Virus record (IMG/VR): IMGVR_UViG_3300023171_000021
Coordinates: 1-45,278 of that record
DNA: 45,278 bases
Direction: 5' to 3' (one strand)
Source: a virus
The first letter of the stretch is position 1. Each line of letters starts with the position of its first letter. The notes under the pieces were generated by a model. That model saw only the letters and a list, made by a program, of their open reading frames with translations. It searched no databases and was not told the origin of the DNA. Position numbers and translations under genes: made by a program. Of the stretch, positions 7,884 to 43,112 are shown piece after piece.

Positions 7884-7899
7884 TTTAAATTAATAAAAT

Positions 7900-23505: not shown

Positions 23506-23763
23506 TTATTTAATTTGTTTCTTAATTTCTAAAATAGAATCTTTATTTACAAAGTATTCATTTTCATAATCTCCAAAGCCATTTCTAGCTTCTTTGTAAT
23601 CTACTTTACCTTGTTCTGCTGCTAGATCTATAAATTGTGCAGCAAATTCTTTCATTGCTAATTCAGCATCTTCAGTTGATATTACATATTCAGTATAGTG
23701 ATCTGCTATTTCAACTGAAAAACACTGATAAGAACTTAATATCTCATGTGCTGTCTTTATCAT
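23506..23763 (-). CDS. Small acidic protein, unknown function
   Basis: Eighty-five residues, alternating helix and strand patterns (A-H-E-I-L-S-S-Y, E-L-A-M-K-E-F-A-A-Q-F-I-D-L-A). It starts within TAATG overlapping the stop of the Sak4-like gene and ends 13 bases before the SSB gene start. No family recognised; its place between two recombination genes suggests a helper role at most. Confidence 0.55.
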   Translation of the reverse strand: MIKTAHEILSSYQCFSVEIADHYTEYVISTEDAELAMKEFAAQFIDLAAEQGKVDYKEARNGFGDYENEYFVNKDSILEIKKQIK

Positions 23764-24551
23764 TACTTTTCCTCTTTAGGAGCTCTTGGTTGTTTATCCA
23801 AATCTAAGAAAATTTCATCCCAATAAGTGTATAATTTATCACCTATTTTTTCTGAAACTACAATTTCCCTATTACTAAGATGTTCTGGTCTTGCACCACA
23901 TACAACATCTTCACTAGTTTTAAAACTTAGTATAGTTTGATTTTTCTTTCTAAACAAATATCCAATGGAATCTGATTTAGAAGCTATAACTCTTTTTAAC
24001 TTACCAGTTAAATCAATTTCTGATGAAGTTATTTTATTATCATCTTTATCTAAAAAGATATCTTTTATGTGTCCTGCTAGAACTATTCTTGGTGCCATCT
24101 TCTGAATAACACTCAATACTTTTTCAAATGCTTGTCTTAACCAATGATAACCACTTCCTTCAGGAAGAGCTATAATACTTCCATATTTAGCTTTACCACC
24201 AGTATCAGCTACAAACCAATTTTTACCCATTGGTGATCTACTATATAATGTTTCAGCATATCCCACACACATATCCTCTAAAGCAGTCATAGTATCAACT
24301 CCTATATACTCATATGGGAAGTTAGCTGCTGCAATAGCTTCTGCTGTTTTTGTAATATCATCAACTGATTCAATATGAACTCTCATTGCATTTACAAATC
24401 CTGAACCATTTTCAAAGTCTAGGATTAAACAATTAGGTAATCCAGCTAATAAACTAGTCTTACCTGTTTTTGGTTTAGATATAATCACTAAGTTATTTGG
24501 TGATTGATCTACATTTATAGTTGGTGATGTTGGTAATTTAAAATCTGACAT
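23763..24551 (-). CDS. Sak4-like RecA-fold ATPase (AAA_24)
   Basis: Seen: 262 aa. Walker A S-K-P-K-T-G-K-T (residues 25-32, first Gly replaced by Ser), L-I-L-D-F-E-N-G-S, Y-I-G-V-D-T-M-T-A-L-E-D (Walker B), R-I-V-L-A-G-H-I-K-D. This matches phage Sak4/AAA_24 proteins, RecA-like ATPases that work with SSB in single-strand annealing and recombination. An exonuclease and a putative SSB in the same operon complete a recombination set. Start chosen at the ATG giving a normal N-terminus; next gene is 3 bases upstream. Confidence 0.8.
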   Translation of the reverse strand: MSDFKLPTSPTINVDQSPNNLVIISKPKTGKTSLLAGLPNCLILDFENGSGFVNAMRVHIESVDDITKTAEAIAAANFPYEYIGVDTMTALEDMCVGYAETLYSRSPMGKNWFVADTGGKAKYGSIIALPEGSGYHWLRQAFEKVLSVIQKMAPRIVLAGHIKDIFLDKDDNKITSSEIDLTGKLKRVIASKSDSIGYLFRKKNQTILSFKTSEDVVCGARPEHLSNREIVVSEKIGDKLYTYWDEIFLDLDKQPRAPKEEK

Positions 24552-25071: not shown

Positions 25072-26037
25072 TTACGTTCTTAATTTTACTTTTTTAGTTG
25101 CTGGTATTCCCATCTCTTTAATACTCATATGTTCAAATTGAGCTTCAAAGAAACATATTGATCTGTCACCATTACGTGCTTTTACAAAGTGTAAAGCTAA
25201 GGTTTTTTCATCAACAATGTACTGTTCTGGGCCATAAATATCTAAATAATATTCAGATGGTTTATTGATTGCAACCATTAAATCTGAATGTTGTAATAGA
25301 GCATCTGCTCCAAAAACATCAGCTGTTGTAGGATAATTTCCTACTGTTCCAGGAATCTTTCTTTCCTGTGCTTCAATACTACGATTCATCTGTGTTAATA
25401 CAATAAAGATAACAGGGTAAGCTCTTTTAAGCTCTGTCATCATCTCACCTAAATTATATAACATTTCAAATTTATCTTTCTCTGTAGCATCCTTTTTAAT
25501 CAACACACTATGATCTATTGTGATTATAGTAGGTTTACCTTTTTCATGTAGGAATAACAATATTGTTTCCTTCATCTGATCAACAGTCATAGACATATCT
25601 ACTTGATATATCTCTTTATGTTCACCTTTACTTATATAAGTCTTAATAATATTAATATCAGAATCATCAATTCTTCTATCAACACTTACTAATTCTTTAT
25701 AAGTCTTACGTACTATAGAAGAGAATTCTCTTACAGCAGTAGTCTTATTACTCATTTCAAACTGAAAATCAAGAACACAAAAGTCTTGATCTTTATTTAA
25801 GCTATGAGCTTGTCTGGTTATTTGATTTACTATAAGTGTTTTACCACTTCCAGGTCTTCCACCTATAGTATTTATAGTTCCCCATTCAAGCCCACCAATA
25901 CCCGCATCATTAAACTTCTTCCATGGAGTTGCTATTGATTTAACAATACCATCTCTTCTATCTTCCATATAAGCTATACCAGCTTTATGAATATCAGAGA
26001 TATGACTCCACAATTTCAGTTTAGGTTTATCACTCAT
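25072..26037 (-). CDS. dnaB: DnaB-type replicative helicase (C-terminal RecA-like domain only)
   Basis: Unwinds DNA at the replication fork. Seen: 321 aa. Walker A G-R-P-G-S-G-K-T (60-67), F-C-V-L-D-F-Q-F-E-M-S, P-T-I-I-T-I-D-H-S-V-L-I (Walker B Asp), I-V-L-T-Q-M-N-R-S (motif H3), F-V-K-A-R-N-G-D (H4 region). The N-terminal DnaB domain is absent or very short, so ring assembly or primase contact may rely on other proteins, such as the neighbouring 171-aa or winged-helix proteins. Clear family. Confidence 0.9.
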   Translation of the reverse strand: MSDKPKLKLWSHISDIHKAGIAYMEDRRDGIVKSIATPWKKFNDAGIGGLEWGTINTIGGRPGSGKTLIVNQITRQAHSLNKDQDFCVLDFQFEMSNKTTAVREFSSIVRKTYKELVSVDRRIDDSDINIIKTYISKGEHKEIYQVDMSMTVDQMKETILLFLHEKGKPTIITIDHSVLIKKDATEKDKFEMLYNLGEMMTELKRAYPVIFIVLTQMNRSIEAQERKIPGTVGNYPTTADVFGADALLQHSDLMVAINKPSEYYLDIYGPEQYIVDEKTLALHFVKARNGDRSICFFEAQFEHMSIKEMGIPATKKVKLRT

Positions 26038-26046
26038 CTTCCTCCT

Positions 26047-26634
26047 TTATCTTACACTATATAATGATGTAGATTTTCTTTGTAGCTCTTCCATACCACC
26101 CTCTATAAGAAGTTGACAATCTGTAGCTAAATCTGACTCATTATTTTTTGATATATAATATCCCGCAGTTTTCATATACATGTAATCAGATTTACGATAT
26201 TCTTCTACATAATATGTAGTAGCATCTAAAATTGTATCCCAACTATAACTAGGATATTTAATTCTAAATTCAATCATTTTCTTCTTAAGATCATCTATAT
26301 TGGTTCTGGCAGCTTTACCAGACGGTAGTTTTTTATTAGGAAATAGTTCCCTATACTCTTCTAAATTTTGCATAAACTCAGTAGTAATTAGATTATTCTT
26401 TTTCTTGTTACGTGAAATTACAAATAACTTTTGTGTATCCTCTAATAAAGTATAACCACTTACTGTAAGTTTATTATGTTCATCAATGAAATTCTTCTCT
26501 TCTAATACCCTTAATTCCTCTTCTTTGTTCGAAATTAGGTCTTGTGACATTATACCTTCGTTGATGCAATCTAAAAGCACCAACTGGTTTGGTGTCAATT
26601 TGTTTATTATCAATAACTTCATTAATTCTTGCAT
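26047..26634 (-). CDS. Winged-helix-like replication-block protein
   Basis: Seen: 195 aa. Residues ~12-63 (L-T-P-N-Q-L-V-L-L-D-C-I-N-E-G, L-R-V-L-E-E-K-N-F-I, L-T-V-S-G-Y-T-L-L-E) fit a winged-helix DNA-binding domain; the C-terminal half (Y-P-S-Y-S-W-D-T-I-L-D-A-T) is helical. Just upstream of DnaB helicase, so it may be a loader or initiator partner (inference). The start overlaps the end of the DnaA-like gene by 152 bases out of frame; later starts would remove the winged-helix part, so the long overlap seems real. Confidence 0.65.
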   Translation of the reverse strand: MQELMKLLIINKLTPNQLVLLDCINEGIMSQDLISNKEEELRVLEEKNFIDEHNKLTVSGYTLLEDTQKLFVISRNKKKNNLITTEFMQNLEEYRELFPNKKLPSGKAARTNIDDLKKKMIEFRIKYPSYSWDTILDATTYYVEEYRKSDYMYMKTAGYYISKNNESDLATDCQLLIEGGMEELQRKSTSLYSVR

Positions 26635-29794: not shown

Positions 29795-31171
29795 TTATTT
29801 AACAACATTTTCTACTTTAATTCCATCAAATATTATAATTTGTTTGTTTTCAACATATTGTTTTTTTACTCCATTAGCAAATCTGCTAAAATTTGCACCT
29901 TTTACTCCAATAAAATATGTATATTTTGAGTATAGACTGCAATGGTCTTCAGCATCAGTAAGAACAATTGCATTTCTATTAATCTTAGATATATGCTTAA
30001 CTACTTCATTAATATTTGTACCTCCACCACTTTCTATAGAAAGTATATCATGAATACTTTTTCCTGTCTTATCTACAACTGTATCAAAAACATAAAGATC
30101 ATTAATAAGGTTTAGTTCTTTCATCTTAAATACGAATGCTTTAGCAAAATGTATTTTAGTAATTGATTTACCTTCTTTATTGTAAGATCCTGACCATGCA
30201 TCCATAGATCCAGATACATCTAAATATAGATCTACCTTACCTACTTTTTTTACATCTTTTACTAAGATGTCATTAATAAATAATTTCTTTAAATTAGGAT
30301 GAAGTAAATGATAATCTTCTAAACCATCCAAATTATCACTTTCTAATAAATTATTATAAATAACTTCTTCTTTAGAAGAAAAGTAAGATATAGACTTATT
30401 AAGTATCTTTTTAATACTTGATTGTAAAGAACCAAGACTCATTGTTACTTTTTTAAGCTCATATCCTAATAATTTAAGACTTTGAAGATTCATTTTATTA
30501 ATAACATTTGATGGAACAGTAGTTATTTTTAACTCTTCCCACATTTCTTGTAACTCATTTTCAGTATATATCTTAGAAAGTTCTTCAATATTTTCCTTAG
30601 AGTCCTTATCAATAGTATTACTTATAATTTTATTCCAACTATTTTGTTCTTCAAGTAAGTCATTTAACTCTTCTAATCCAGCAGATCCACTTTTATCTTT
30701 AAGATCTTTCATTATCTCATGAAAACTATCATTATCATACTGCTCTATAGTAGATAACATAATTAAATAATATTGGACAAGTCCTCTAGTAAAGATCATA
30801 GATCTAATACTATTATTATTAGTAATAACTTTTATATTAGGATCATTTGCTTTATCAAGTAATCTATATTTACTACCATTTTGTTCTGTTCTTTGTTCAA
30901 ACTTTAAATTCTCAATATGATTATAATATATATTATATATATCATTGACAATTGATCTTGGAAAAGATCTCCAGATTTGTCTTATTTGATTAAATATATC
31001 ATCTGGAGAAAGTATTTCAGTCTTCTTATATTTAGTTATTAACTGAACAAACTTCTTATTATTAGAATTATCATTGATATAAGCATTAATAGCATTAATT
31101 AATGCATTACTATCCATCTCATGTAGATAAGGACTTACTAACTCTTTTTTAAAATGGTGTGTCATCATCAT
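29795..31171 (-). CDS. VWA-domain protein of MoxR/VWA pair 1
   Basis: Seen: 458 aa. The C-terminal von Willebrand A domain has a complete MIDAS: L-D-V-S-G-S (D318, S320, S322), G-G-G-T-N-I (Thr), and V-L-T-D-A-E-D. The N-terminal ~300 residues are helical and charged. Known: MoxR-type AAA+ proteins act with VWA partners to remodel or insert metals into target proteins (CobS/CobT-like, RavA/ViaA-like). Its start overlaps the AAA+ gene by 23 bases. In a phage the target is unknown; modifying a host complex or assembling phage particles are both possible. Confidence 0.82.
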   Translation of the reverse strand: MMMTHHFKKELVSPYLHEMDSNALINAINAYINDNSNNKKFVQLITKYKKTEILSPDDIFNQIRQIWRSFPRSIVNDIYNIYYNHIENLKFEQRTEQNGSKYRLLDKANDPNIKVITNNNSIRSMIFTRGLVQYYLIMLSTIEQYDNDSFHEIMKDLKDKSGSAGLEELNDLLEEQNSWNKIISNTIDKDSKENIEELSKIYTENELQEMWEELKITTVPSNVINKMNLQSLKLLGYELKKVTMSLGSLQSSIKKILNKSISYFSSKEEVIYNNLLESDNLDGLEDYHLLHPNLKKLFINDILVKDVKKVGKVDLYLDVSGSMDAWSGSYNKEGKSITKIHFAKAFVFKMKELNLINDLYVFDTVVDKTGKSIHDILSIESGGGTNINEVVKHISKINRNAIVLTDAEDHCSLYSKYTYFIGVKGANFSRFANGVKKQYVENKQIIIFDGIKVENVVK

Positions 31172-32240
31172 TTTGAGCTTTACTAGGATGTTTATTCATT
31201 ACTTCTGTAATAGCATCTTCAATTATAATTAGATCATCACTGTCAATCTTTTTAGATGCAGTATAACCTTTAATTAAAGCTTCTATTTCATTCATATGAG
31301 CCTCAATTCCTACAGGATCAGTAACTGTATATAATACTTCGATTTTATTTAATATACTTTTTACTTCAGTACTTATTAAACTATTATGAAGCTCAGAAGC
31401 AGCAGCAGATCCAACTATAATAGATGCTAATCTAATTAATGATTTATCTATATTCTCTTCCCATACTTTACTGATAATTTTAGTAAGCTTTGGAATAAAG
31501 GTAAGAGTCCTATCAGAACATTTATTATAACTTACAGTAAGAAACTTATTTAACTTTTTAGAATTTACTTCTATATCATCAATCTCTTCTTTAGTAGGAA
31601 TGTTAATATCAAAACACTCTTTATAACTCTTTTCTCCACCTTCATAGTATTTTAATACATCTGAAGAAGATATTCTATTAACTACTTTCTTTAGAATAAA
31701 TCTATCCCAAAATGGTGATCCTTCCTCTTCTTTAGGGATCTCATTGCATGCACCTATAAAAAGCTTCCATTTACATGGTATTTTCTCTTTACCATTAAAT
31801 ATGAACTTCTCATTCATAACACCTAATAAACTATTTCTAATAGCAGAAGAGGCTTTATCTATTTCATTAACAATAATAATTTCTGCATCTGCTATAGGAG
31901 TATTTAAAGAGTATTTGTTATTAATAAACATATTCTCTATATCAGGAGTACCTTTAATTTCAGAAGCCTTTGTACCTTCATCAGTTTCTAAGATATATAC
32001 TTTATCCATATAGTCATTAGAAGCTTGAGTCATTTCTTGTTTATTACTCTTATCTATATTCTGCATTATCCATGCTTTAGCATAATCCAATGCTATCCTG
32101 GTTTTCCCAGTACCTGGATTACCAATCAATAAGACAGGTAATCCAGATGAATGAGCTAAAGCCAGCATTTTGAATACTTCTTTCTTATTAATAAGATTAG
32201 TATCTATAGTTATATATCTATCTGACTTTGTTTGTTCCAT
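31149..32240 (-). CDS. MoxR-type AAA+ ATPase of pair 1
   Basis: Seen: 363 aa. Walker A G-N-P-G-T-G-K-T (40-47), Walker B I-I-I-V-N-E-I-D-K-A (usual Asp before Glu is Asn125; E126 kept), sensor-like L-F-I-G-A-C-N-E-I-P, and W-D-R-F (Arg finger region). Fits the CobS/MoxR group. Translationally coupled to the VWA gene. The altered Walker B residue could slow or change ATP hydrolysis. A second, diverged pair exists at the right edge of the window. Confidence 0.82.
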   Translation of the reverse strand: MEQTKSDRYITIDTNLINKKEVFKMLALAHSSGLPVLLIGNPGTGKTRIALDYAKAWIMQNIDKSNKQEMTQASNDYMDKVYILETDEGTKASEIKGTPDIENMFINNKYSLNTPIADAEIIIVNEIDKASSAIRNSLLGVMNEKFIFNGKEKIPCKWKLFIGACNEIPKEEEGSPFWDRFILKKVVNRISSSDVLKYYEGGEKSYKECFDINIPTKEEIDDIEVNSKKLNKFLTVSYNKCSDRTLTFIPKLTKIISKVWEENIDKSLIRLASIIVGSAAASELHNSLISTEVKSILNKIEVLYTVTDPVGIEAHMNEIEALIKGYTASKKIDSDDLIIIEDAITEVMNKHPSKAQNDDDTPF

Positions 32241-32608
32241 TATGGTAATTGTTGTTCTACTTCAGCTGAATGTGGATATATACCAGGACCTTTTTGTAAT
32301 AATTCACCTTCTTTAACCATTCTTAAACTAGGAGGAGTTGGTTTTTCTGGTATAACTACCTGATTATCACAAACTTTTTCTTCTACAATTTCTGTAGGTT
32401 TAGTATCATCAACTATTTCAAATATATATTTAGTAACTTGAACATCTTTTAATGCTGGATGTTTCTGTATAGTAAGTATCTGAATATCAGTAGCTTCATA
32501 TTTTTGTTGAATACTACCAGCTCCATTATCATCTTTTTTTAACCAAGATAATCCTGAATTTAAATCTTCTATTAATTGTGTTATGGTTAATTTTACTTTT
32601 TCTATCAT
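32240..32608 (-). CDS. Hypothetical protein in the MoxR/VWA operon
   Basis: Seen: 122 aa; N-terminal helix (T-I-T-Q-L-I-E-D-L-N-S-G-L-S-W-L-K-K), a K-Y-E-A-T-D-I-Q-I-L-T-I-Q-K-H-P-A-L segment, and a Pro-rich linker (P-E-K-P-T-P-P). It starts on the base where the AAA+ gene stops. No family recognised; close packing suggests co-expression with pair 1, not proof of partnership. Confidence 0.6.
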   Translation of the reverse strand: MIEKVKLTITQLIEDLNSGLSWLKKDDNGAGSIQQKYEATDIQILTIQKHPALKDVQVTKYIFEIVDDTKPTEIVEEKVCDNQVVIPEKPTPPSLRMVKEGELLQKGPGIYPHSAEVEQQLP

Positions 32609-32961
32609 TTTATGTTCTGTTCTAATATTTGTAAATTATTTAATATATCATCAATATTATAATCTGGTTCGAGATGACATAATTCTGGACTATATTGACC
32701 ACTATATGTTGATCCAGTTCTATATATTAATCCAAATTCATTTGAATTTACAAGTTTATCTTTCTTAGTATATATATCTATATAAAATGCTGGATTACTT
32801 AATCTATCATAGTATGTTACCTGTGTTTCTTTAATAATTGCATAATGACTAGAATTCATGGTTGATATTCTAGGATTATCTTTTATAATAAAATTAAATT
32901 TTGCACCTATTTTATAATCACTTGCATCAACTATTTTTGTAATTAACTTATCTTCTACCAT
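32605..32961 (-). CDS. Hypothetical protein
   Basis: Seen: 118 aa, mixed strands and helices (F-N-F-I-I-K-D-N-P, Y-A-I-I-K-E-T-Q-V-T-Y-Y, N-P-A-F-Y-I-D-I-Y) with a helical C-terminus (I-L-N-N-L-Q-I-L-E-Q-N). Overlaps neighbours by 4 and 7 bases. No family or catalytic motif recognised. Confidence 0.55.
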   Translation of the reverse strand: MVEDKLITKIVDASDYKIGAKFNFIIKDNPRISTMNSSHYAIIKETQVTYYDRLSNPAFYIDIYTKKDKLVNSNEFGLIYRTGSTYSGQYSPELCHLEPDYNIDDILNNLQILEQNIK

Positions 32962-33659
32962 TTTATTGGAGTTACTTTATTTTGTTCTAAACTTTCATTT
33001 ACTTTATTAAATACATCTTTACAATCCCATTCTAATTGATTAGTATAACCAGCAGACATTGGATGTGATATAATATATTTAGTATGTGAATCACTAACCA
33101 ATCCTTCAAGACTAGCAGCTTCTTTTCCTAAGAAAACAAAAACAACATGTTTCTTATTATTACTAATAGTATCTAAAGTATATGCAATAAATGCTGACCA
33201 TATCTTCTGATGAGTCATTGGTTTATCTATTTGAGTAGTAAGAGCTGTATTTATTAATAATACACCCTGATTAGCTAAATACCTTAAATCAGTTTGTCTA
33301 GGTTCAGGTATTGGATCATATACAGTTCTTTGTATTGCATCTCTCATATATCTTAAACTAGGTTGCTCTTTGTTAGTCTTACTACAACTAAATGCTAGTC
33401 CATCTGCTACTCCTAAAGTAGGATAACTATCTTGTCCAATCATTACTACTCTAAGATCTTCCCATTTAGATTCTTCAAATGCAGTAAATACATCTTTTAG
33501 TACAGGAGTAAACCTCTTACCATCATTAACTTCTTTTTCTAGATCTTCTATAATCTTAACAAAGTCTGATGAGTATATAAATCCCTTAAGTACTGACGCC
33601 CATCCTGATGATTTTAATTTATCTATAAGCTTTTCTTTAATCTCTTCTATGTTAATCAT
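32955..33659 (-). CDS. ung: Uracil-DNA glycosylase
   Basis: Removes uracil from DNA. Seen: 234 aa. V-V-M-I-G-Q-D-S-Y-P (catalytic D77), G-V-A-D-G-L-A-F-S, G-V-L-L-I-N-T-A-L-T-T, W-S-A-F-I, V-F-V-F-L-G-K-E-A, and I-S-H-P-M-S-A-G-Y. This follows Ung order; however the canonical GQDPYH is GQDSYP and HPSPLS is HPMSAG, so activity may be changed. Fits a phage with its own ThyX and dNTP enzymes. Overlaps the macro-like gene by 8 bases. Confidence 0.85.
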   Translation of the reverse strand: MINIEEIKEKLIDKLKSSGWASVLKGFIYSSDFVKIIEDLEKEVNDGKRFTPVLKDVFTAFEESKWEDLRVVMIGQDSYPTLGVADGLAFSCSKTNKEQPSLRYMRDAIQRTVYDPIPEPRQTDLRYLANQGVLLINTALTTQIDKPMTHQKIWSAFIAYTLDTISNNKKHVVFVFLGKEAASLEGLVSDSHTKYIISHPMSAGYTNQLEWDCKDVFNKVNESLEQNKVTPIKW

Positions 33660-35256: not shown

Positions 35257-35638
35257 GTTCATCACCTAAATTATAACATTCTTGTATAGCAGCTGATAAA
35301 TCTTCTTTAGATGCATCACCGAAGGAAGGGCAGATAAATATCTCCTTTCCTTCTTTTTCTCTAGTAATACATAATCCAGCTTTCTGTTTAATTACTAACT
35401 TAAGATCAGATGTACTTATACCAGTATGTCTAGATAAATCTCTAATCATAGCATGAATCTTTGATAATTGAGCTAAGTTAGCATCGTCATCTACAATCTC
35501 TGCATATAAATCAACATAACTTCCTTCAGGGATAAGTGATTTAAACTTCTCATAATCATTCGTATCTCTATCTTTAATATAGACTAATTGTCCATTCTCT
35601 TTCTTAAGTCTACCAAAAAAATTATAATTCAAATTCAT
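35237..35638 (-). CDS. Hypothetical protein with possible NinB-like segment
   Basis: Seen: 133 aa. The middle block A-Q-L-S-K-I-H-A-M-I-R-D-L-S-R-H-T-G, D-L-K-L-V-I-K-Q-K-A-G-L-C resembles the pattern of phage NinB-like recombination proteins, but the match is weak. The C-terminal part (A-A-I-Q-E-C-Y-N-L-G) is helical. Overlaps DUF7448-like gene by 17 bases. Function unproven. Confidence 0.5.
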   Translation of the reverse strand: MNLNYNFFGRLKKENGQLVYIKDRDTNDYEKFKSLIPEGSYVDLYAEIVDDDANLAQLSKIHAMIRDLSRHTGISTSDLKLVIKQKAGLCITREKEGKEIFICPSFGDASKEDLSAAIQECYNLGDELNYPLM

Positions 35639-36023
35639 CTTCTTCTGTTTCGTTTATCTCACTAATGTATACTGACTCACTATAATAACCATTAGATTGA
35701 CCATACCATCTTATAGTTACATATCCTTTAATAGTAGCAAACTTATAGAATGTCCAAGTACATGATTCTACACTATAATCATCTTCATCATCTGTAGTAG
35801 GTTCAGCTAGATTATTAGTTTCCTCATCTGCCATATGTAATGGATATCCAATAAGATCATTTATATCTCCTATAATATCATCAATAGTGACAGATTCACA
35901 ACAATCCTGAGAATGATACATTCTAAACTGTTTTCCATCATCTCTTGTAAAGATGATTTCATTATTTACTTTATCAACTTTTATATCTGTTAAAATTCTA
36001 TGGAATAATTCTTTAATGACCAT
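35622..36023 (-). CDS. DUF7448-like protein
   Basis: Seen: 133 aa. M-Y-H-S-Q-D-C-C-E-S-V, D-D-I-I-G-D-I-N-D-L-I-G-Y-P, S-C-T-W-T-F-Y-K-F-A-T, V-T-I-R-W-Y-G-Q-S-N-G-Y-Y-S: this is the characteristic sequence order of the DUF7448 phage family. Function unknown; beta-rich, with a conserved CC pair. Ends with an acidic tail. Two bases after the helicase gene. Confidence 0.72.
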   Translation of the reverse strand: MVIKELFHRILTDIKVDKVNNEIIFTRDDGKQFRMYHSQDCCESVTIDDIIGDINDLIGYPLHMADEETNNLAEPTTDDEDDYSVESCTWTFYKFATIKGYVTIRWYGQSNGYYSESVYISEINETEEDEFEL

Positions 36024-36025
36024 AT

Positions 36026-37120
36026 TTAATCTTTAAACTCCTTATATGTAATTTTACTCTGATCTAAACTAGATAAAGCTTTTTCTATCCATTGCTCATC
36101 TACTGTATCTTTATAACATAATAAATGTATATTAGACATATCATCTGTAGTAAGATTAAGAGCTCTAGCAAACCTTTGTAAAAATTTATTATCTGATGCA
36201 AAAGCATGTAATATAATAGATTCTTTAAGTCCAGGAATAGTAACTCCTTCAGATAATTGCAATACACATCCTAGTTTTTCTATTACTCCAATTTTAAATA
36301 ATTGAAGATTAGCTTCACTTTCTGAATTACTACTATGATATGTGTGATCACATAATTTATCAGCTTGATCTTTAGTGTTAGCAAATACAATACATTTATG
36401 TTCCATCTTTTCTAGAAGATTCTTAGCATATACTTCTTTTGATTTAAAGTTCTGCATTGTCTTCATTCTATTTATATTAGCCCAAGAAGTTCTAGTCTCT
36501 TCTACAGATTTCGTAGCATACTCATAAGCTTTTATCTCATTAGTATAAAAATCATGTTTAGCTGTTTTTACATGAATATCCCTCTTTTGTGATAGAGGAA
36601 TCATATGTACTATAATTCTATAATCATTAAGAATATCCGCATCTATTGCATCTTCAGTATGATAAGTATATTGAATAGGAGCATAATGCTTAATCATCTT
36701 ATATTGCTCACTATGTTTATTTGTTGGTGGTGTACCAGTAAGACCTAATATCTCTCCTTTAAAAGTATATAATTCTTGAGTATTATGACTCATTTTAAGA
36801 GCATGTATTTCATCGAATACTATAATTTTATAATCTGATAATTTTAATTTACTAAATGATCTATATGTTACATAATCAATATGTTCATTTAAGTAATGAT
36901 AATTAAACTTCTTTATATCATCTTTCCATCCTTTAAAGATTGAAAGCTTAGGAGCAACTATTAATACTTTACCTTCAGTTCCTTTAACTATTTTATTTAT
37001 TACTTCAAGACCTATCTTAGTCTTACCAACTCTCATACTTATATTAAGAGTTCGTTTTGTATATTTTGAAGCTTCAGTAATTGCTTCTTCCTGAACCTTT
37101 TCTCTATTCTGATTCTGCAT
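36026..37120 (-). CDS. SF2 DNA/RNA helicase (DEAH/D-type)
   Basis: Seen: 364 aa. Motif I S-M-R-V-G-K-T (28-34), Ia L-I-V-A-P-K-L-S-I, II I-I-V-F-D-E-I-H, III L-G-L-T-G-T-P, IV C-I-V-F-A-N-T, and V/VI F-L-Q-R-F-A-R-A-L-N-L. Shortened compared with typical SF2 helicases, as in phage UvsW/Rad25-like proteins that remodel DNA in recombination and replication. Overlaps the upstream 129-aa gene by 17 bases. Confidence 0.85.
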   Translation of the reverse strand: MQNQNREKVQEEAITEASKYTKRTLNISMRVGKTKIGLEVINKIVKGTEGKVLIVAPKLSIFKGWKDDIKKFNYHYLNEHIDYVTYRSFSKLKLSDYKIIVFDEIHALKMSHNTQELYTFKGEILGLTGTPPTNKHSEQYKMIKHYAPIQYTYHTEDAIDADILNDYRIIVHMIPLSQKRDIHVKTAKHDFYTNEIKAYEYATKSVEETRTSWANINRMKTMQNFKSKEVYAKNLLEKMEHKCIVFANTKDQADKLCDHTYHSSNSESEANLQLFKIGVIEKLGCVLQLSEGVTIPGLKESIILHAFASDNKFLQRFARALNLTTDDMSNIHLLCYKDTVDEQWIEKALSSLDQSKITYKEFKD

Positions 37121-37493
37121 AGAATTCTGTATCTGTATTTAACAAAGATACGATTTCTTTTGTTTCTGTATTTACTACTCTAAACTTTCTTCCAGCAAAC
37201 CTCCAATGTTCATTAATTGCAGTTTTACCTTTACCAGCTAACATTGTAGTTCTAGCTAATTTATTCATTTGTTCTATACAGTGTTTAACTGATAGCATAT
37301 TACTAAACCATGAGTCTTTAACCCAAGTATCTTTTTTAAACTCTTTATAAAAGAAAGCATGTTCTTTAACTACATTTTCATCTATCATCATAGCTTCTAA
37401 TTGCCATGGTTTAGGTACTTTCTTTCTTATAACATTCTCTCCTGGAGGAACATCAGCATACTCTTCATATTTCTTCTTTTCTACCTTCTTCAT
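37104..37493 (-). CDS. Hypothetical protein
   Basis: Seen: 129 aa; basic N-terminus (K-K-V-E-K-K-K-Y-E-E-Y), P-P-G-E-N-V-I, W-Q-L-E-A-M-M-I-D, an A-G-K-G-K-T-A-I-N loop that resembles a P-loop but lacks the required preceding strand and the following Walker B, so I do not call an ATPase. Ends with a beta-like R-K-F-R-V-V-N-T-E-T-K-E-I-V. No family recognised; coupled to the helicase gene. Confidence 0.55.
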   Translation of the reverse strand: MKKVEKKKYEEYADVPPGENVIRKKVPKPWQLEAMMIDENVVKEHAFFYKEFKKDTWVKDSWFSNMLSVKHCIEQMNKLARTTMLAGKGKTAINEHWRFAGRKFRVVNTETKEIVSLLNTDTEFYAESE

Positions 37494-37840
37494 ATCTTTT
37501 TCTTTTTATTAAGTATGTTTTGCTCTAATATAAAAAAGCTACTATAAAAAGCAGCTTCTTCACATTCTTTTCTACTCTCATAAGGTTTATTATCTGAAGA
37601 TTGTCCTTTAAAGGATGTACCATTATTAATAGTAAAAAACCATCTTTTAATATTTACATACTCTTCTCCAAAGTTATATTCAGGACATACTTCAATCCAT
37701 ATTCTTTTCTTATCAAAGAATGTATATAAATCTCTTACTATAACGAAATGTCTGCTTCCACTAGTTACTTCTTTATCTTTCCAAAATTTGAAGTTACTGT
37801 ATGCATTAGGACATTTTTCTTTAATAACCTTTAAGTCCAT
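37490..37840 (-). CDS. Hypothetical protein
   Basis: Seen: 116 aa; H-F-V-I-V-R-D-L-Y-T-F-F, R-I-W-I-E-V-C-P-E-Y, R-W-F-F-T-I-N-N-G-T, C-terminal helix and polybasic end (N-K-K-K-K-I). Aromatic, beta-rich. Overlaps the ATP-grasp-like gene by 10 bases. No family recognised. Confidence 0.55.
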   Translation of the reverse strand: MDLKVIKEKCPNAYSNFKFWKDKEVTSGSRHFVIVRDLYTFFDKKRIWIEVCPEYNFGEEYVNIKRWFFTINNGTSFKGQSSDNKPYESRKECEEAAFYSSFFILEQNILNKKKKI

Positions 37841-38568
37841 TTTCTATATTCTGTCATTTGAAACCACCTATCTCTTAGCATTTTAGCATATGTTAGTGGA
37901 TCTAATCCATAATGTCCTATACTCCAAAAATCATTACATTCAATTAGTACAGTTTTTTGAGGATTAGGAGTACTTATTACTGCTACATCTATAGTATATG
38001 CTATAGGACAATATGCAAAACCTTTATATCTATAAATCATTTTATCTATAATTGCTATATCTGGAAATTTATCAAATTGACCACTATAATGTTTTAATCC
38101 TACTAATTCTTTATTATATACAAAGCCTCTCCATTCAGATACTATATCTATAATATTAGATACAAAAACAGCAGTAGCATCTGGTTGATCAATTAAATAA
38201 TGAATATTAGATCCATGTTTAATAACACCTGAAGAAAACTGTTTAACTTTTTCAAATGGTTTAATAAAGACAGGTGTAGTAATAGCAGCAACCTGTTTGA
38301 GTGTTAGAGTTTTTACTTTTCTTTGTAAATAATCATCTTCTCTTAGACATGCTGGTATATTTAAAGGTCTTGGATATTTTATATTATGCTTATCCATATA
38401 TTCAATAGTAGGTTCTACATCAGCTACTACTATATTATCAGGAGCATAAGGTATATCATTTACATTAGTAAAGAATATAATTTCTGCTTGTAATTCCCGA
38501 AAACCTTTACATGCTGCAAAAATCCAATCAGTTTCTATTTCTTTATTTTTATAAATATATACTTTCAT
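37831..38568 (-). CDS. ATP-grasp protein, R2K-clade-like
   Basis: Seen: 245 aa. V-F-I-K-P-F-E-K-V-K-Q-F-S-S-G-V-I, S-E-W-R-G-F-V-Y, Y-T-I-D-V-A-V, and L-I-E-C-N-D-F-W-S-I-G-H-Y-G-L, then M-L-R-D-R-W. This matches the R2K-type ATP-grasp family (metal-binding E-C-N-D core with upstream Lys and Arg). Known: R2K proteins are proposed to modify peptides or proteins by ATP-dependent ligation, and some are linked to phage and conflict systems. Substrate not readable; no peptide precursor is obvious nearby. Confidence 0.72.
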   Translation of the reverse strand: MKVYIYKNKEIETDWIFAACKGFRELQAEIIFFTNVNDIPYAPDNIVVADVEPTIEYMDKHNIKYPRPLNIPACLREDDYLQRKVKTLTLKQVAAITTPVFIKPFEKVKQFSSGVIKHGSNIHYLIDQPDATAVFVSNIIDIVSEWRGFVYNKELVGLKHYSGQFDKFPDIAIIDKMIYRYKGFAYCPIAYTIDVAVISTPNPQKTVLIECNDFWSIGHYGLDPLTYAKMLRDRWFQMTEYRKWT

Positions 38569-38570
38569 AA

Positions 38571-39017
38571 TTACTCTTCTTCGTATAATAACTTATGTAA
38601 GAAATCTTTTTCTTGTTCTATTCTTAATTTTTCTGCTTCCTTAGCTTGTCTTTTAGCTAATTGTTTCTCAGCATACTCTTTAGCTTTAAGATTACGTTCT
38701 TCTTTAGCTTTTTTCTCTCTTTCATGTCTTTTAATCCAACCTTTTTTAGCAGCTTCAGACATTTTCTCAGAATAAGCTTTATTACGTGCAATACGTTCAG
38801 CTTCTTTCTTTTCAGCAGTTATCCTAATTTCTTCTTTTAACTCTTCAGTTAATTCCCTATAATATGTTATTCTAAATGAGTTTATACTATAAGGTCTTAT
38901 ATGTATACGACATAAAGTAATATTATCTTTAAGATATGACTCTTTTATTAATTTAATATGTTCTTCAATGTCATCTATAACACTAATAAAAATACTATTT
39001 ACTTCTAGTTCTTCCAT
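38571..39017 (-). CDS. Long basic coiled-coil protein
   Basis: Seen: 148 aa; N-terminal ~65 residues folded-looking (I-F-I-S-V-I-D-D-I-E-E-H-I), then a long Lys/Glu/Ala-rich helix (residues ~68-140) with G-W-I-K-R-H-E in the middle. A coiled-coil DNA- or protein-binding role is plausible; no family recognised. Overlaps the next gene by 23 bases. Confidence 0.55.
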   Translation of the reverse strand: MEELEVNSIFISVIDDIEEHIKLIKESYLKDNITLCRIHIRPYSINSFRITYYRELTEELKEEIRITAEKKEAERIARNKAYSEKMSEAAKKGWIKRHEREKKAKEERNLKAKEYAEKQLAKRQAKEAEKLRIEQEKDFLHKLLYEEE

Positions 39018-39219
39018 TATCTTTTACTAACATATATTCTGGATGAATAAATACAGTTCCAGAATCCCAATCAAATCCTTCATGTAACATAACTATATTA
39101 GCAGAAGAAGATGGTCCTACACTATCATTATTAGTTGATATTACTACTCTTAAATCATTCTTAGATGGGTCATCTATAAGTATGTTATCTATATGTTGTC
39201 TTAATTCTCCTAGTGTCAT
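38995..39219 (-). CDS. Small phage protein of GFDWD type
   Basis: Seen: 74 aa; M-T-L-G-E-L-R-Q-H-I-D, a middle D-L-R-V-V-I-S-T-N-N-D-S, and H-E-G-F-D-W-D-S-G-T-V-F-I. I recognise the general form of small phage proteins with this order, but no function is attached to it. Overlaps both neighbours by 4-23 bases. Confidence 0.55.
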   Translation of the reverse strand: MTLGELRQHIDNILIDDPSKNDLRVVISTNNDSVGPSSSANIVMLHEGFDWDSGTVFIHPEYMLVKDNGRTRSK

Positions 39220-39605
39220 AATATATCTTTAAATTTTTCTTGAAGTTTTACTAATTCAATATAATCAGGATCATCTTGTGCAAGCTGTAATCTAGTTTTC
39301 CTAACTTGAATAGCTCTTTCTTTGTCATCCTTTTCTTGTTGTTTTTTAGCTTCGTAACCTTCTCTTTTAATTTTCTCTTCAGGTGTTTCAGATCTATAGA
39401 AATTTACTTCTATATAAGAATTATCTTCATTTCCAGCTATATTAAGAACATATTCAAATTGAAATTCATCAGGTGGATATGTTATATAGATATCTTTAAG
39501 ACCATCATTATAGATCTGTAATACTTCTTTACTTAATTCATCTAAAGAATTATATTCACCTTTTTCTAATTCTATACCTTTAATATATTGTCTATTCTCA
39601 ATCAT
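39216..39605 (-). CDS. Hypothetical protein with charged C-terminal helix
   Basis: Seen: 129 aa; N-terminal mixed fold (I-K-G-I-E-L-E-K-G-E-Y, D-I-Y-I-T-Y-P-P-D-E-F), followed by a charged helix (E-K-I-K-R-E-G-Y-E-A-K-K-Q-Q-E-K) and L-V-K-L-Q-E-K-F-K-D-I-L. Overlaps neighbours by 4 bases. No family recognised. Confidence 0.5.
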   Translation of the reverse strand: MIENRQYIKGIELEKGEYNSLDELSKEVLQIYNDGLKDIYITYPPDEFQFEYVLNIAGNEDNSYIEVNFYRSETPEEKIKREGYEAKKQQEKDDKERAIQVRKTRLQLAQDDPDYIELVKLQEKFKDIL

Positions 39606-39835
39606 AAGTATTCTATTTTATATGTTGAATTAGCAGTTTTAAATGTAGAGTCATCAATAATCTCTTCTATAGGAGAAGTAGAAAACCATGTACCAAGGGT
39701 TAAAATCATAACACATTCTCCAACTCTTAATTCGCTATTAATCATATCTCCAGTCTTTTCATAACCAGTATTTATTTTATTAGGATGATTATCATTAAAC
39801 TTATCATCTAATATTTTTGTTACTTTAACTTTCAT
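39602..39835 (-). CDS. Small beta-rich hypothetical protein
   Basis: Seen: 77 aa; V-K-V-T-K-I-L-D-D-K-F, R-V-G-E-C-V-M-I-L-T-L-G-T-W-F-S-T-S, I-I-D-D-S-T-F-K-T-A-N-S-T-Y-K-I. Its strand pattern resembles a small OB/SH3-like barrel, but this is a guess. Overlaps both neighbours by 4 bases. Confidence 0.5.
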   Translation of the reverse strand: MKVKVTKILDDKFNDNHPNKINTGYEKTGDMINSELRVGECVMILTLGTWFSTSPIEEIIDDSTFKTANSTYKIEYL

Positions 39836-40155
39836 GAATCAAATTCTTTTATTTCTTTACTATAGTAGGATTTAGCTCCACCTAAAAATGCACATACTAA
39901 ATGCTCCTCTAGAAAATATACTTGTTTATTATCAGTCATTATAAAATATGGACCTGATTTAACACTATCCCATCTACTTTCAAATCTACTTTGTGTAATA
40001 ATATTAAGTTCTGCTAATCCAGCTGCTAATCTTCTTATTAAAGTCTTTTCACCTAAAGTTTTTTCAGTAAAATATCTCCACTCATTTTCAAACTCAGCTT
40101 GTTTATATTGAGGCATATAAGCATTACCTGTTTTTATATATCTAAATTCTATCAT
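39832..40155 (-). CDS. Hypothetical protein
   Basis: Seen: 107 aa; Y-I-K-T-G-N-A-Y-M, F-E-N-E-W-R-Y-F-T-E-K-T-L-G-E-K-T-L-I-R-R-L-A-A-G-L-A-E-L, Y-F-I-M-T-D-N-K-Q-V-Y-F-L-E-E-H-L. Helix flanked by strands. No family recognised; starts on the stop base of the upstream gene. Confidence 0.5.
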   Translation of the reverse strand: MIEFRYIKTGNAYMPQYKQAEFENEWRYFTEKTLGEKTLIRRLAAGLAELNIITQSRFESRWDSVKSGPYFIMTDNKQVYFLEEHLVCAFLGGAKSYYSKEIKEFDS

Positions 40156-40403
40156 TATTGTTTAAACTTTAATTCTTTAACAATATTTTCAAATCCTTCT
40201 AAATGATCTTTATGAAGTATTACTTCTTCAAAAGCCCCATATGTAGATTGGTATCCAAATATATATTTAATACCATACTTAAGTCTATCTAAAAAAGATC
40301 TCTTAGTTAAATTTACACCTAGATATACATCATCATCATCATATCTAATAACTACTACATGTTCTAAACTAGAACATTCACATACTAATATTTCATTTTT
40401 CAT
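40155..40403 (-). CDS. Hypothetical protein
   Basis: Seen: 82 aa; I-L-V-C-E-C-S-S-L-E-H-V-V-V-I-R-Y-D-D-D-D-V-Y-L-G-V-N-L-T, C-terminal H-K-D-H-L-E-G-F-E-N-I-V-K-E-L. A compact beta start with two Cys; no family recognised. Overlaps upstream gene by 4 bases. Confidence 0.5.
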   Translation of the reverse strand: MKNEILVCECSSLEHVVVIRYDDDDVYLGVNLTKRSFLDRLKYGIKYIFGYQSTYGAFEEVILHKDHLEGFENIVKELKFKQ

Positions 40404-40654
40404 TGTGAATTTATTTTATCTAGTGTATCATTATACTCTTTAGTATAATGATTATATATATTAACTGCTTTTAATAATTTATATGGTAATTCTTTTACTC
40501 CAATACCACTTAATCTTCTATATGCAGTTAAATCAATTTTCTTATTATCTGTTGGTAAATTATATGCAGCATTAGTTAAATGTTTATAATACTGTTGTGA
40601 TGCAAACTTTATTCTAGTATGTACTTCATTCCTTATCTTCATCTTCATCTTCAT
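40400..40654 (-). CDS. Small helical hypothetical protein with repeat-encoded start
   Basis: Seen: 84 aa starting M-K-M-K-M-K-I-R-N-E. The three possible ATGs come from a GAAGAT hexamer repeat that in the other frame encodes the acidic end of the HNH protein, so the real start could be any of them. Body is helical (Q-Q-Y-Y-K-H-L-T-N-A-A-Y, Y-K-L-L-K-A-V-N-I-Y). No family recognised. Confidence 0.5.
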   Translation of the reverse strand: MKMKMKIRNEVHTRIKFASQQYYKHLTNAAYNLPTDNKKIDLTAYRRLSGIGVKELPYKLLKAVNIYNHYTKEYNDTLDKINSQ

Positions 40655-41123
40655 TGTATTTATCTAATCTATTATAACTTATACCTAATTCTTTAGCTTC
40701 TTTAGGGTGAAGCTCACAATATTCATGACATGCATGACATAAAGGTTTCCACCATTTTTTATCCAAATACAAATCACCAACTCTACCTCTTGAGTGATGT
40801 ACTTCCGTTGATTCATGTGTACATATAAATCTTATATTAGCTGCACATATAGGATTTGCTACTAAAAATAATAATCTTTCTATACCATATTCTTTTTGTT
40901 CTATCTTTCTCTTTAATGAAACTATTTTAGGGAACTTAGTCCTCTTCAATGGTTTATATTTCATAGGTTGAGTAGAGACTGGAGTTTCATATGAATCTAC
41001 AGCCTCTTTAGTATCTAATTTCAGTTTATTCCAACATGAAATGCAATACTTCTCACCCAGTTTGCTTGACCAGATGAACTTTTCTAGTTTACATCCGTAG
41101 CATAGTTTTTTCTTATTTTCTAT
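40626..41123 (-). CDS. HNH endonuclease with N-terminal zinc ribbon; start codon not standard
   Basis: From the ATG at 40964 the product is 112 aa with H-H-S-R-G-R, W-W-K-P-L-C-H-A-C-H-E-Y and P-K-E-A-K-E-L, a typical HNH core. The frame is open upstream to the previous gene's TAA (41130-41132) and encodes L-C-Y-G-C...Y-C-I-S-C-W (Cys 8, 11, 27, 30 counting from the ATA at 41121-41123), a convincing zinc ribbon of the kind placed before HNH cores in related phage enzymes. No ATG, GTG or TTG exists there. Either a rare ATA/other start is used, the start was lost by mutation, or only the short form is made. Confidence 0.62.
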   Translation of the reverse strand: MENKKKLCYGCKLEKFIWSSKLGEKYCISCWNKLKLDTKEAVDSYETPVSTQPMKYKPLKRTKFPKIVSLKRKIEQKEYGIERLLFLVANPICAANIRFICTHESTEVHHSRGRVGDLYLDKKWWKPLCHACHEYCELHPKEAKELGISYNRLDKYNEDEDEDKE

Positions 41124-41129
41124 AAGTAC

Positions 41130-41645
41130 TTATTTTAATTCATAATAGTTATTTGGTAATAACTTAGCTAATATAAGCTTTTTAACTATCATATCTTTTG
41201 TAATACCTAACTCTTTAAAATCTAATTTATTCTTATTATTTGAATCATAATAATCATAATTAGCTAATTCAGATGCTAGTTTACTATGTGAAAAGAAAGT
41301 AGTAAGAAAACTACCTAATTTTTGATGACATATTTCTTGTTTCCACTTATCAAGAAATTGCTGTACTTTTTGTTGATTGTTTGTAATTTTAGCCTTCTTT
41401 AGGAATGGCATTTCTTTAACTTCTTCAGGAGTAAATACAGATAATCCATACAATGCTACTCTATAAGCTTGTTGTTGAGCTTTATTTTGATAGAACTTAC
41501 CTTTGTATTTATTTCCATGTAACTGAATACTATTTAATATTGATTCTTTTTCATAAGGTAGATTAAAGTGTTTACACGTGTCAGTATATGATATTGTTAT
41601 ACCACGACTGTTTGCTGAAATAGCTTTGTTAGGATTGTGTTTCAT
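41130..41645 (-). CDS. Conserved hypothetical protein
   Basis: Start chosen at M-K-H-N-P-N-K (41645); an earlier ATG at 41705 would begin inside the terminator hairpin 41678-41706 and adds an unlikely hydrophobic lead. The 171-aa product has Q-Q-Q-A-Y-R-V-A-L-Y-G-L-S-V-F-T-P-E-E-V, then F-L-D-K-W-K-Q-E-I, and is mainly helical. I associate this with a crAss-like hypothetical type but know no function. Same frame as the following HNH gene. Confidence 0.6.
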   Translation of the reverse strand: MKHNPNKAISANSRGITISYTDTCKHFNLPYEKESILNSIQLHGNKYKGKFYQNKAQQQAYRVALYGLSVFTPEEVKEMPFLKKAKITNNQQKVQQFLDKWKQEICHQKLGSFLTTFFSHSKLASELANYDYYDSNNKNKLDFKELGITKDMIVKKLILAKLLPNNYYELK

Positions 41646-41677
41646 GTTACATGGATTTATAGTTAGTATAAAAAATA

Positions 41678-41706
41678 AATGGGGCTGTATTCCTACAAAC
41701 CCCATT
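41678..41706 (-). terminator. Intrinsic terminator after the 160-aa gene
   Basis: Stem AATGGGG/CCCCATT with a 15-base loop, followed on the - strand by a T-rich run (complement of A-rich 41669-41679). It lies 7 bases after the stop of the 160-aa gene. Confidence 0.75.
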
Positions 41707-41712
41707 CTGGTA

Positions 41713-42195
41713 TTATTCTGTTATGGTATCACCATTTACTACATTGTCTGAGTAGTATCTACCCATTTTTTTTAGATAAACTATTTCTTTTCTTATCTCT
41801 TCACCATTATCATGTTGAATTAACTCATCTTTATCATTAAAATCTGGTGTATACACAACTTGTCTATAAATTGGATCACCTTGAAAAGTACATATAATTC
41901 CTGTATTTCCAGCTATTTTTAAATCATGATCAGGATCTTCAGTATTGAATGGTATTAAAGATTCTTTAATTACTATTCTTCCTTCTAATTCTTGTCCATC
42001 TCTATATTTAGCTTTCTTTAAATCATCTAATGTACCTTTAATTAATGCTGATCTGGGATCAAAGGTTAACCAACCTTTGTTACTAATTAAAGGAGTGTTC
42101 TGTTCTACCCTAATATAACCATATTCTGGATTATTAGGTGATATTCCTATAATTGCCCCAGTAACATCAGCAGTTATTGTTACTGGACTTCTCAT
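41713..42195 (-). CDS. Conserved hypothetical protein, possible OB-like fold
   Basis: Seen: 160 aa; I-T-A-D-V-T-G-A-I-I-G-I-S, P-E-Y-G-Y-I-R-V-E-Q, L-E-G-R-I-V-I-K-E-S-L-I-P-F-N, L-K-I-A-G-N-T-G-I-I-C, P-I-Y-R-Q-V-V-Y. Mostly strands, which could form an OB-like barrel, though the nucleic-acid role is only a guess. I associate the pattern with a conserved crAss-like phage protein. Own terminator downstream suggests substantial expression. Confidence 0.6.
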   Translation of the reverse strand: MRSPVTITADVTGAIIGISPNNPEYGYIRVEQNTPLISNKGWLTFDPRSALIKGTLDDLKKAKYRDGQELEGRIVIKESLIPFNTEDPDHDLKIAGNTGIICTFQGDPIYRQVVYTPDFNDKDELIQHDNGEEIRKEIVYLKKMGRYYSDNVVNGDTITE

Positions 42196-42196
42196 T

Positions 42197-42451
42197 TTAT
42201 TCCATAAATAAATCTATGTCAATATCTGGATCTAATAGCTTTTCTTCATCTGTTACAGAAGTAAGATCTTCAAGAATTTCTTCTTCTATATCATCTGGTA
42301 TCTGTCTTCCTAATACTGAACCATGCCAAGGATTCTCTATATAGTCACCATGATAGGTACTATTTAAATAATCTAATTCTGAATCTGACATGTTTAAATA
42401 TTGTTCTACAGACATCTCAATAGTTGTCCCGTTTTTTAATGAATAAGTCAT
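42197..42451 (-). CDS. Small acidic hypothetical protein
   Basis: Seen: 84 aa; M-S-V-E-Q-Y-L-N-M-S-D-S-E-L-D-Y-L-N-S, P-W-H-G-S-V-L, and an acidic end (I-D-I-D-L-F-M-E). Preceded by an 80-base non-coding stretch with a short ATGATA/TATCAT inverted repeat next to its start; no recognisable promoter there. No family recognised. Confidence 0.55.
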   Translation of the reverse strand: MTYSLKNGTTIEMSVEQYLNMSDSELDYLNSTYHGDYIENPWHGSVLGRQIPDDIEEEILEDLTSVTDEEKLLDPDIDIDLFME

Positions 42452-42531
42452 TTGATGATAATTTGTATCATAAATGTAAACTCTATTAACTGTATTAGCA
42501 ATAGATGAGTTTATCTAACGGGAGAATATAG

Positions 42532-42732
42532 CTATAGTTTATTTCCTTTCTTAGTTCTAATTACACCTTTCCAGTATGAATTAGTCTTATTGATATTTTC
42601 TTGACAATTTTTGTTTCTTTCCTCTAGATCTTTAACTACTTTAGTCAAATTATCTCTGTCTTTTGTTATTTCATCTAGTTGTTTATAATATTCAGGAAGT
42701 AATTTCCTTTTTAACCACTCTAATGGATTCAT
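42532..42732 (-). CDS. Small coiled-coil protein
   Basis: Sixty-six residues: P-L-E-W-L-K-R-K-L-L-P-E-Y, a heptad-like D-E-I-T-K-D-R-D-N-L-T-K-V-V-K-D-L, and basic end K-K-G-N-K-L. Likely one coiled-coil helix. No family recognised; the 80 bases downstream hold nothing else I can support. Confidence 0.5.
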   Translation of the reverse strand: MNPLEWLKRKLLPEYYKQLDEITKDRDNLTKVVKDLEERNKNCQENINKTNSYWKGVIRTKKGNKL

Positions 42733-42734
42733 AC

Positions 42735-43073: not shown

Positions 43074-43080
43074 AATTAAA

Positions 43081-43110: not shown

Positions 43111-43112
43111 AT

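Follow-up and report, generated by a model that had tools for sequence, protein, structure and literature searches.

Two described cellular systems are the nearest parallels to the viral genes reported here. In RavA-ViaA, the gene for the von Willebrand factor A (VWA) protein ViaA lies beside that for the MoxR-type AAA+ ATPase RavA, and in CbbQ-CbbO a MoxR motor acts with a VWA adaptor that bears a metal ion-dependent adhesion site (MIDAS). To our knowledge, MoxR-VWA machines are widespread, and targets are known for very few of them. For CbbQO, a model of a hexamer with a metal-site adaptor has been built, whose authors predict the same arrangement in similar systems, and Acidithiobacillus holds two paralogous sets, each serving one rubisco form (PMC4660213; this and the other papers named here are cited from excerpts). 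In viruses, group 2.2 jumbo phages encode a MoxR AAA+/vWA chaperone-cochaperone pair (PMC7824862), Acidianus two-tailed virus has a MoxR ATPase and VWA partner in p618/p892 (PMC4124505), and a two-subunit MoxR-type chaperone has been published for Bacillus phage 0305phi8-36. MoxR-VWA chaperones are also central to conflict systems proposed in bacteria (PMC7159879). Here we analyze IMG/VR virus record IMGVR_UViG_3300023171_000021, whose entire 45,278 bases are referred to as the window, and which carries two such pairs: pair 1 (MoxR1 and VWA1, members of family 1) and pair 2 (MoxR2 and VWA2, members of family 2).

We consider it probable that pair 1 serves as a core remodeller linked to the replication or repair of DNA, and that pair 2 is a further, exchangeable machine that acts on a different substrate. 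MoxR-VWA pairs of phages and viruses are already published, as the examples above make plain; what appears to be new, as far as searched in the open-licence PMC literature, is the presence of two families in crAss-related phages, a cassette in which pair 1 follows a uracil-DNA glycosylase (UDG) gene and a small gene, orf122, and a lineage holding both pairs. That literature yielded no paper for crAss-like phages with MoxR or for Crassvirales with von Willebrand, and the excerpted text of a crAss phage paper mentions UDG and an AAA+ ATPase, not von Willebrand (PMC7886860). The window is nearly identical to a longer contig, IMGVR_UViG_3300022932_000001 (G001; 134,893 bases), with 97.8% identity over window positions 1-35631 and 96.6% over 36022-45278, and both pairs are likewise encoded on contigs G002 and G003. 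A chimeric or locally erroneous assembly is ruled out by the presence of both pairs in all three contigs and by the 127-base exact terminal repeat at the end of G001, as expected of a complete genome. The four genes are:

31149-32240, minus strand: MoxR1, AAA+ ATPase of 363 amino acids, with Walker A GNPGTGKT, Walker B Asn-Glu and an acidic tail ending DDDTPF
29795-31171, minus strand: VWA1, pair-1 partner of 458 amino acids, with a helical N-terminal part and a C-terminal VWA domain (residues ~308-458) with complete MIDAS
44346-45278, minus strand, 5' end beyond the window: MoxR2, AAA+ ATPase with Walker A GKGGHGKS; complete in G001 at 25073-26167 (364 amino acids)
43118-44362, minus strand: VWA2, pair-2 partner of 414 amino acids, with a C-terminal VWA domain with complete MIDAS

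Composition and divergence of the two pairs

The assignment of both pairs to the MoxR class of two-part remodelling machines powered by ATP is well supported, because the ATPases match bpMoxR and RavA and their partners combine a VWA fold with invariant MIDAS residues. MoxR1 (78.4 bits, E 5e-22) and MoxR2 (51.7 bits, E 7e-14) both exceed the cut-off of 27 bits for Pfam bpMoxR (PF20030), a family whose title names MoxR-vWA ternary systems, and RavA is the sole match in the PDB at E 0.001 or better for either family profile (8.6e-10 for MoxR1, 8.1e-10 for MoxR2). RavA aligns with both profiles over the AAA module only, and the NCBIfam RavA cut-off of 681 bits is not reached (MoxR1 43.2, MoxR2 36.6); CbbQ models are absent from the NCBIfam matches listed for these ATPases. 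In place of the usual Walker B Asp-Glu, all 38 aligned MoxR1 proteins have Asn-Glu and all 27 aligned MoxR2 proteins have Glu-Glu. The residues that we presume to be the sensor 1 Asn, the arginine finger and the sensor 2 Arg are invariant among the 38. For the partners, a Pfam scan gave nothing above cut-off in VWA1 or VWA2, while the C-terminal part of each AlphaFold model adopts a VWA fold: for VWA1 (mean predicted local distance difference test score 76.0) the best match is 4fx5, with Z 11.9 and a root-mean-square deviation of 2.9 over 131 aligned residues, and for VWA2 (mean score 83.6) it is 6pyx_A, with Z 12.9 and a deviation of 2.6 over 147. Five residues that we presume to form the MIDAS are invariant in 48/48 aligned VWA1 and 27/27 aligned VWA2 sequences. 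By analogy with CbbQ-CbbO and RavA-ViaA, the MoxR protein would form a hexameric AAA+ motor, and the VWA partner would grip one chosen target through its MIDAS and hand it to the motor. The N-terminal parts of both VWA models are helical, and that of VWA1 gave no identified family in family searches.

The pairs resemble each described system in part. They share adjacent MoxR and VWA genes with RavA-ViaA, from which the neighborhood differs in that UDG and orf122 precede pair 1, and they share the motor and MIDAS-bearing adaptor with CbbQ-CbbO, though CbbO is a protein of ~770 amino acids whose target is rubisco. The vWA protein of the group 2.2 jumbo phages has, in the excerpted description, an N-terminal metallopeptidase, unlike the VWA proteins of the window, in which Pfam found no peptidase domain above cut-off; a single VWA1 out of 48 matches Peptidase_M91 weakly (E 0.0095). 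MoxR1 is 26% identical to the MoxR protein of Acidianus two-tailed virus over 47% of its own length, and the VWA2 model matches ORF892 of that virus in BFVD (E 1.9e-5, rank 17); p618 is a major virion component, whereas the pairs described here lie among non-structural genes. The VMAP MoxR-vWA ternary conflict systems are ordered third gene, MoxR, vWA, like orf122-MoxR1-VWA1, yet, in the excerpts of PMC7159879, effector domains are fused C-terminally to vWA, whereas in both of our models the VWA domain is itself C-terminal. Moreover, Pfam found no effector domain above cut-off in the 48 VWA1 proteins or in the VWA2 of the window, and orf122, compared with the third core protein of those systems, has only ~120 amino acids and is without a Pfam match.

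An initial annotation of the window had described two distinct AAA+/VWA pairs in the order AAA+ then VWA, with diverged sequences and the two Walker A forms listed above, and gene order, bpMoxR scores and VWA folds all bear this out. MoxR1 and MoxR2 share 23% identity in one stretch of 206 columns, BLASTP finds no significant match between VWA1 and VWA2 (best E 0.27), and the profiles of the two families align weakly (hhalign probability 78 and 55); recent duplication, which would have undercut that annotation, is thereby ruled out. As judged from these comparisons, the two pairs are old, separate, phage-specific families. Among named phage records, 19 match MoxR1 and 4 match MoxR2, all as distant AAA relatives, and VWA1, VWA2 and a VWA2 relative from locus L134 match none. 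A search of ~85,000 prokaryote genomes with the MoxR1 and MoxR2 profiles confirmed none of the pattern matches that it returned (103 and 107), with patterns short enough that distant cellular kin could escape. Within both pairs the VWA gene starts inside the MoxR gene, by 23 bases in pair 1 and by 17 in pair 2. In family-1 relatives the median gap between MoxR1 and VWA1 is 82.5 bases, and it is negative in G001 alone; the pair-1 overlap is therefore a feature of the lineage, not of the family.

Changes between the window and G001 indicate purifying selection on VWA1, VWA2 and the part of MoxR2 within the window, as read from an excess of synonymous over non-synonymous changes per site in each. 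MoxR2 (930 bases within the window) and VWA2 together carry 15 synonymous changes and 1 non-synonymous change, and VWA1 carries 12 and 11 (pN/pS ~0.21). MoxR1, orf122 and UDG show no change at all, beside a helicase gene with 95; this uneven divergence suggests recombination. Between G001 and G002 the copies of the pairs are 41-62% identical, with pS of 0.82-0.98, which is near saturation, and pN of 0.28-0.39.

A core cassette and an accessory pair

Pair 1 has a conserved setting on the minus strand of the window:

32240-32608, minus strand: orf122, a short conserved gene, third member of the cassette around pair 1, with a stop that overlaps the MoxR1 start (TAATG)
32955-33659, minus strand: UDG, 234 amino acids, conserved upstream neighbor of the cassette
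36026-37120, minus strand: helicase, with ResIII and Helicase_C domains above cut-off

The MoxR1 profile matched 108 stretches of viral contigs, from which 80 loci were kept (41 after removal of near-copies of MoxR1). In 79 of the 80, VWA1 is the open reading frame (ORF) that directly follows MoxR1, and in L045 it comes second, after a small ORF on the opposite strand; four of the VWA1 genes are cut by contig ends. Upstream of MoxR1 on the same strand, orf122 is present in 77/80 loci and UDG, within 2.5 kb, in 76/80, and every miss is a contig that ends within 505 bases of the MoxR1 match. The helicase was matched in 72 of 78 loci (L002 and L047 were left out of this count). All 16 contigs G001-G016 exceed the bpMoxR cut-off. 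As far as sampled, and judged from gene content, the phage group of the window has pair 1 as its standard machine, passed on as UDG-orf122-MoxR1-VWA1 within a block of replication and repair genes. UDG itself is above the Pfam cut-off (PF03167, 26.5 bits against 24.3), its family profile matches uracil-DNA glycosylase in the PDB at 6e-38, and NCBIfam ung models match it strongly (best 145.9 bits, E 1.6e-42) yet below their cut-offs (162 for the best). The 122 residues of orf122 gave no Pfam match and, like the N-terminal half of VWA1, no identified family in family searches; the protein ends in a conserved Phe-x-x-Leu in 22 of 23 aligned members, the exception being that of G001.

Several observations on these proteins stand apart from the distribution. 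MoxR1 is short in the window and G001, with 363 amino acids against a median of 504, and is missing an N-terminal stretch that most relatives have; VWA1 likewise has no counterpart there to the N-terminal stretch found in most relatives. A YKNxYTILE-type motif opens VWA1 in 72/80 loci and is absent from all three frames just upstream in the window. G015, a phage contig that also holds pair 1, has a third kind of pair (L128, 281-2208), identified at the Pfam level as an AAA_5 ATPase of 338 amino acids followed by a DUF7192 protein of 281.

Family 2 is distributed differently. A three-row MoxR2 profile gave 44 loci, with VWA2 directly after MoxR2 in 43 and the remaining one cut off; 43 loci were placed (the near-copy in G003 was excluded from the tree). 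Eighteen of the 43 hold, or share a contig with, the terminase of a second phage group, three lie in gene blocks like those of the window's group, and 19 are unassignable, with the window lineage and L134 making up the remainder. A terminase match was obtained in 25 of the 28 contigs searched. Terminases of the second group are 28-30% identical to that of G001, compared with 61-66% among members of the window's group, to which the terminase of one MoxR2 carrier, G020, belongs. Family 2 is accessory in the second group, because MoxR2 occurs in 9 of 17 contigs selected by terminase (at least 95 kb, sampled from 80 kept), a share that is likely an over-estimate given a terminase profile built from MoxR2 carriers. 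One of the eight second-group contigs without MoxR2 has another bpMoxR protein.

The two families meet rarely. Each of G001, G002 and G003 has two separate bpMoxR genes, and each of G004-G016, the 13 contigs of at least 100 kb selected for carrying MoxR1, has one; MoxR2 is absent from all 13, with G001 as positive control. Conversely, MoxR1 is absent from 12/12 long contigs selected for MoxR2 (G001 again as control) and from the 17 second-group contigs. Eight contigs of at least 55 kb were taken from the 80 kept with a window-group terminase, using a profile built mainly from MoxR1 carriers; MoxR1 is present in each of the three that exceed 119 kb and in one of 57 kb, the other four, fragments of 55-93 kb, are without it, and MoxR2 is in none of the eight. 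Among the long contigs examined, both pairs thus occur together only in G001-G003, all of the window's lineage, and they were not found to be commonly co-inherited with a known assembly role. The initial annotation had remarked that phages seldom have reason to carry two such machines. This holds for the combination, which is unusual among the relatives searched, though a single pair is unremarkable, with published precedents and, as far as sampled, a standard or common place in its own phage group.

The site of pair 2 also varies. In G030, UDG lies directly before the homologue of a replication-side gene and the family-2 pair sits between helicase and UDG, with neither MoxR1 nor VWA1 found in its 43.7 kb; in G020 the pair occupies the same place behind the helicase, and the contig ends ~4 kb past VWA2, before any UDG is visible. 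In G001, unlike G020 and G030, pair 2 lies upstream of the helicase, and the sites therefore differ by lineage, as an exchangeable cassette would show. A quick MoxR2 tree of 43 rows clusters the proteins of G001, G002 and L134 together (support 88, not starred) and separates them from both the G020/G030 type and the second phage group; it has long branches and two extremely long rows (L173 and L174), on which the program gave a warning. The window copy is therefore unlike a recent import from any sampled relative, and a recent transfer from the second phage group in particular is unsupported. At L134 (2476-6548; contig G017), the relative of pair 2 is followed directly by another AAA protein, of 402 amino acids; G017 is a contig of 8.2 kb with only three proteins common to G001 by BLASTP.

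Possible targets of the two machines

The target of pair 1 most likely lies in phage or host DNA replication or repair, a reading that we prefer to a capsid substrate because of gene neighborhood and strand: in G001, both pairs share a strand with the replication-side genes, opposite to that of the capsid, portal and terminase genes. Pair 2 would be an optional machine whose location differs between two phage groups; only the window's lineage retains it alongside pair 1, presumably on account of a different substrate. By analogy with the paralogous CbbQO sets, two pairs in one phage would imply two substrates. A number of points weigh against this interpretation. Neighborhood is no proof of function, and we infer the targets of both pairs. 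The genes beyond VWA1 lend no identity: the first ORF of at least 90 amino acids is on the opposite strand in 65/80 loci, on the same strand in 9 and absent in 6, and two of the opposite-strand genes had no Pfam match above cut-off. About 1 kb before pair 2, G001 has a lysis-type glucosaminidase (PF01832, E 3.5e-16; 23521-24048, equal to L010 3521-4048), and in the second group MoxR2 is missing from eight of the 17 contigs. Pair 1 could be partly reduced in the window and G001, given the missing N-terminal stretches, though the purifying selection on VWA1 counts against this. Finally, G030, which keeps UDG and has pair 2 in place of pair 1, may indicate that one pair substitutes for the other in the same job.

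This last point leads to the view that the pairs are interchangeable versions of one machine, with the window's lineage caught holding both after a transfer, which we regard as possible though doubtful. The gene block of G030 and the confinement of both pairs, among long contigs, to G001-G003 are in its favor, but both pairs persist in G001 and G002, the copies of which are only 41-62% identical, with synonymous sites near saturation, and this argues against brief redundancy. That one or both pairs serve as virion-assembly chaperones maturing a capsid or tail component seems unlikely to us. Assembly roles have been proposed for the jumbo-phage pairs and for p618/p892 (excerpts of PMC7824862 and PMC4124505), the VWA2 model does match ORF892, and a terminase gene lies within the 10-kb flanks of 16/43 family-2 loci (that of G001 excluded); against this, the BFVD matches are low in TM-score and the VWA domain is widespread, and pair 1 stands beside UDG and helicase in nearly all loci, on the opposite strand to the capsid module in G001. 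The initial proposal of phage assembly factors as targets is weakened accordingly. Its other proposal, host defence complexes, found no direct support. In its fuller form, as host takeover or counter-defence by the dismantling of defence or metabolic complexes, with two pairs for two host targets, it is in our judgment improbable: the accessory, patchy occurrence of pair 2 at different sites is the pattern of a host-interaction gene, and MoxR-VWA chaperones do belong to the core of proposed conflict systems, but PADLOC gave only weak matches for MoxR1 (best E 0.0027) and nothing for the other three proteins, the VWA proteins scanned have no effector domain above cut-off, and pair 1, nearly universal in the sampled relatives, looks more like housekeeping. 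On the preferred reading, of a core remodeller with an exchangeable second machine, two phage-specific MoxR-VWA families, one locked to UDG throughout a large phage group and one exchangeable, offer a natural experiment in which targets can be compared within one infected cell.

The MoxR1 tail and the surrounding phage

The acidic tail of MoxR1 resembles the C-terminal tip of bacterial single-stranded DNA-binding protein (SSB), which reads DDDIPF (excerpt of PMC5872125) and recruits at least 17 partners (excerpt of PMC7145534). MoxR1 ends in PF in 39/80 loci and in F in 57/80 (20/41 and 28/41 after de-duplication), preceded by acidic residues, in tails that vary in length and sequence; among the other mechanically called ORFs of at least 100 amino acids in the same loci, 3 of 1,534 end in PF. 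It is conceivable, though we think it quite unlikely, that the flexible tails are SSB-tip mimics docking the AAA+ ring onto SSB-binding proteins, such as the phage UDG or host repair and restart enzymes, with VWA1 selecting which is pulled apart or released; pair 1 would then use ATP to remodel DNA-repair complexes, a function conserved throughout a large environmental crAss-related group. If the likeness is real, it would provide a short address label for tracing the target. Several facts run counter to it: 13 of the 41 de-duplicated proteins do not end in Phe, that of G002 ends ...AATI, no protein of at least 80 amino acids in G004 or G005 has a Pro-Phe end, and the DDD codons in the window contain the ATG triplets that start VWA1. 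Another reading would make the acidic tail a ligand of the metal site of VWA1 itself. Among the papers listed, judged by title or abstract opening in the open-licence literature, none was found on an SSB-tip mimic of a phage AAA+ protein. Three proteins of 194-198 amino acids with similar ends also finish ...PF (L044 18062-18646, L089 18326-18922 and L100 14137-14733); the L044 copy has no Pfam match, and our guess is that they are an unrecognized phage SSB.

Terminase matches suggest that the phage of the window is distantly related to the gut crAss phages. The terminase of G001, which like its portal and major head proteins matches PHROG head-and-packaging families, has matches in 90 phage records, of which 45 are "uncultured", 29 Flavobacterium and 16 others, with identities of 22.8-24.3% in the 30 rows shown. 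By their names (uncultured "cr" phages or a Bohxovirus), we take half of these 30 to be crAss-like. At the DNA level, window positions 25000-45278 are without a near match among named phages. The replication-side genes of the window include a DnaB-type helicase, a DnaA C-terminal-domain protein, a Toprim (primase-like) protein, a DNA polymerase, an exonuclease and a thymidylate synthase. Giant ORFs of up to 4,497 amino acids lie at the strand junction of G001, and two in the window (45-12447; 2,612 and 1,515 amino acids) have no PHROG match, the larger corresponding to part of the 4,497-residue ORF. Within the pair-1 gene block, positions 35622-36023 encode a DUF7448 protein (E 9.7e-29).

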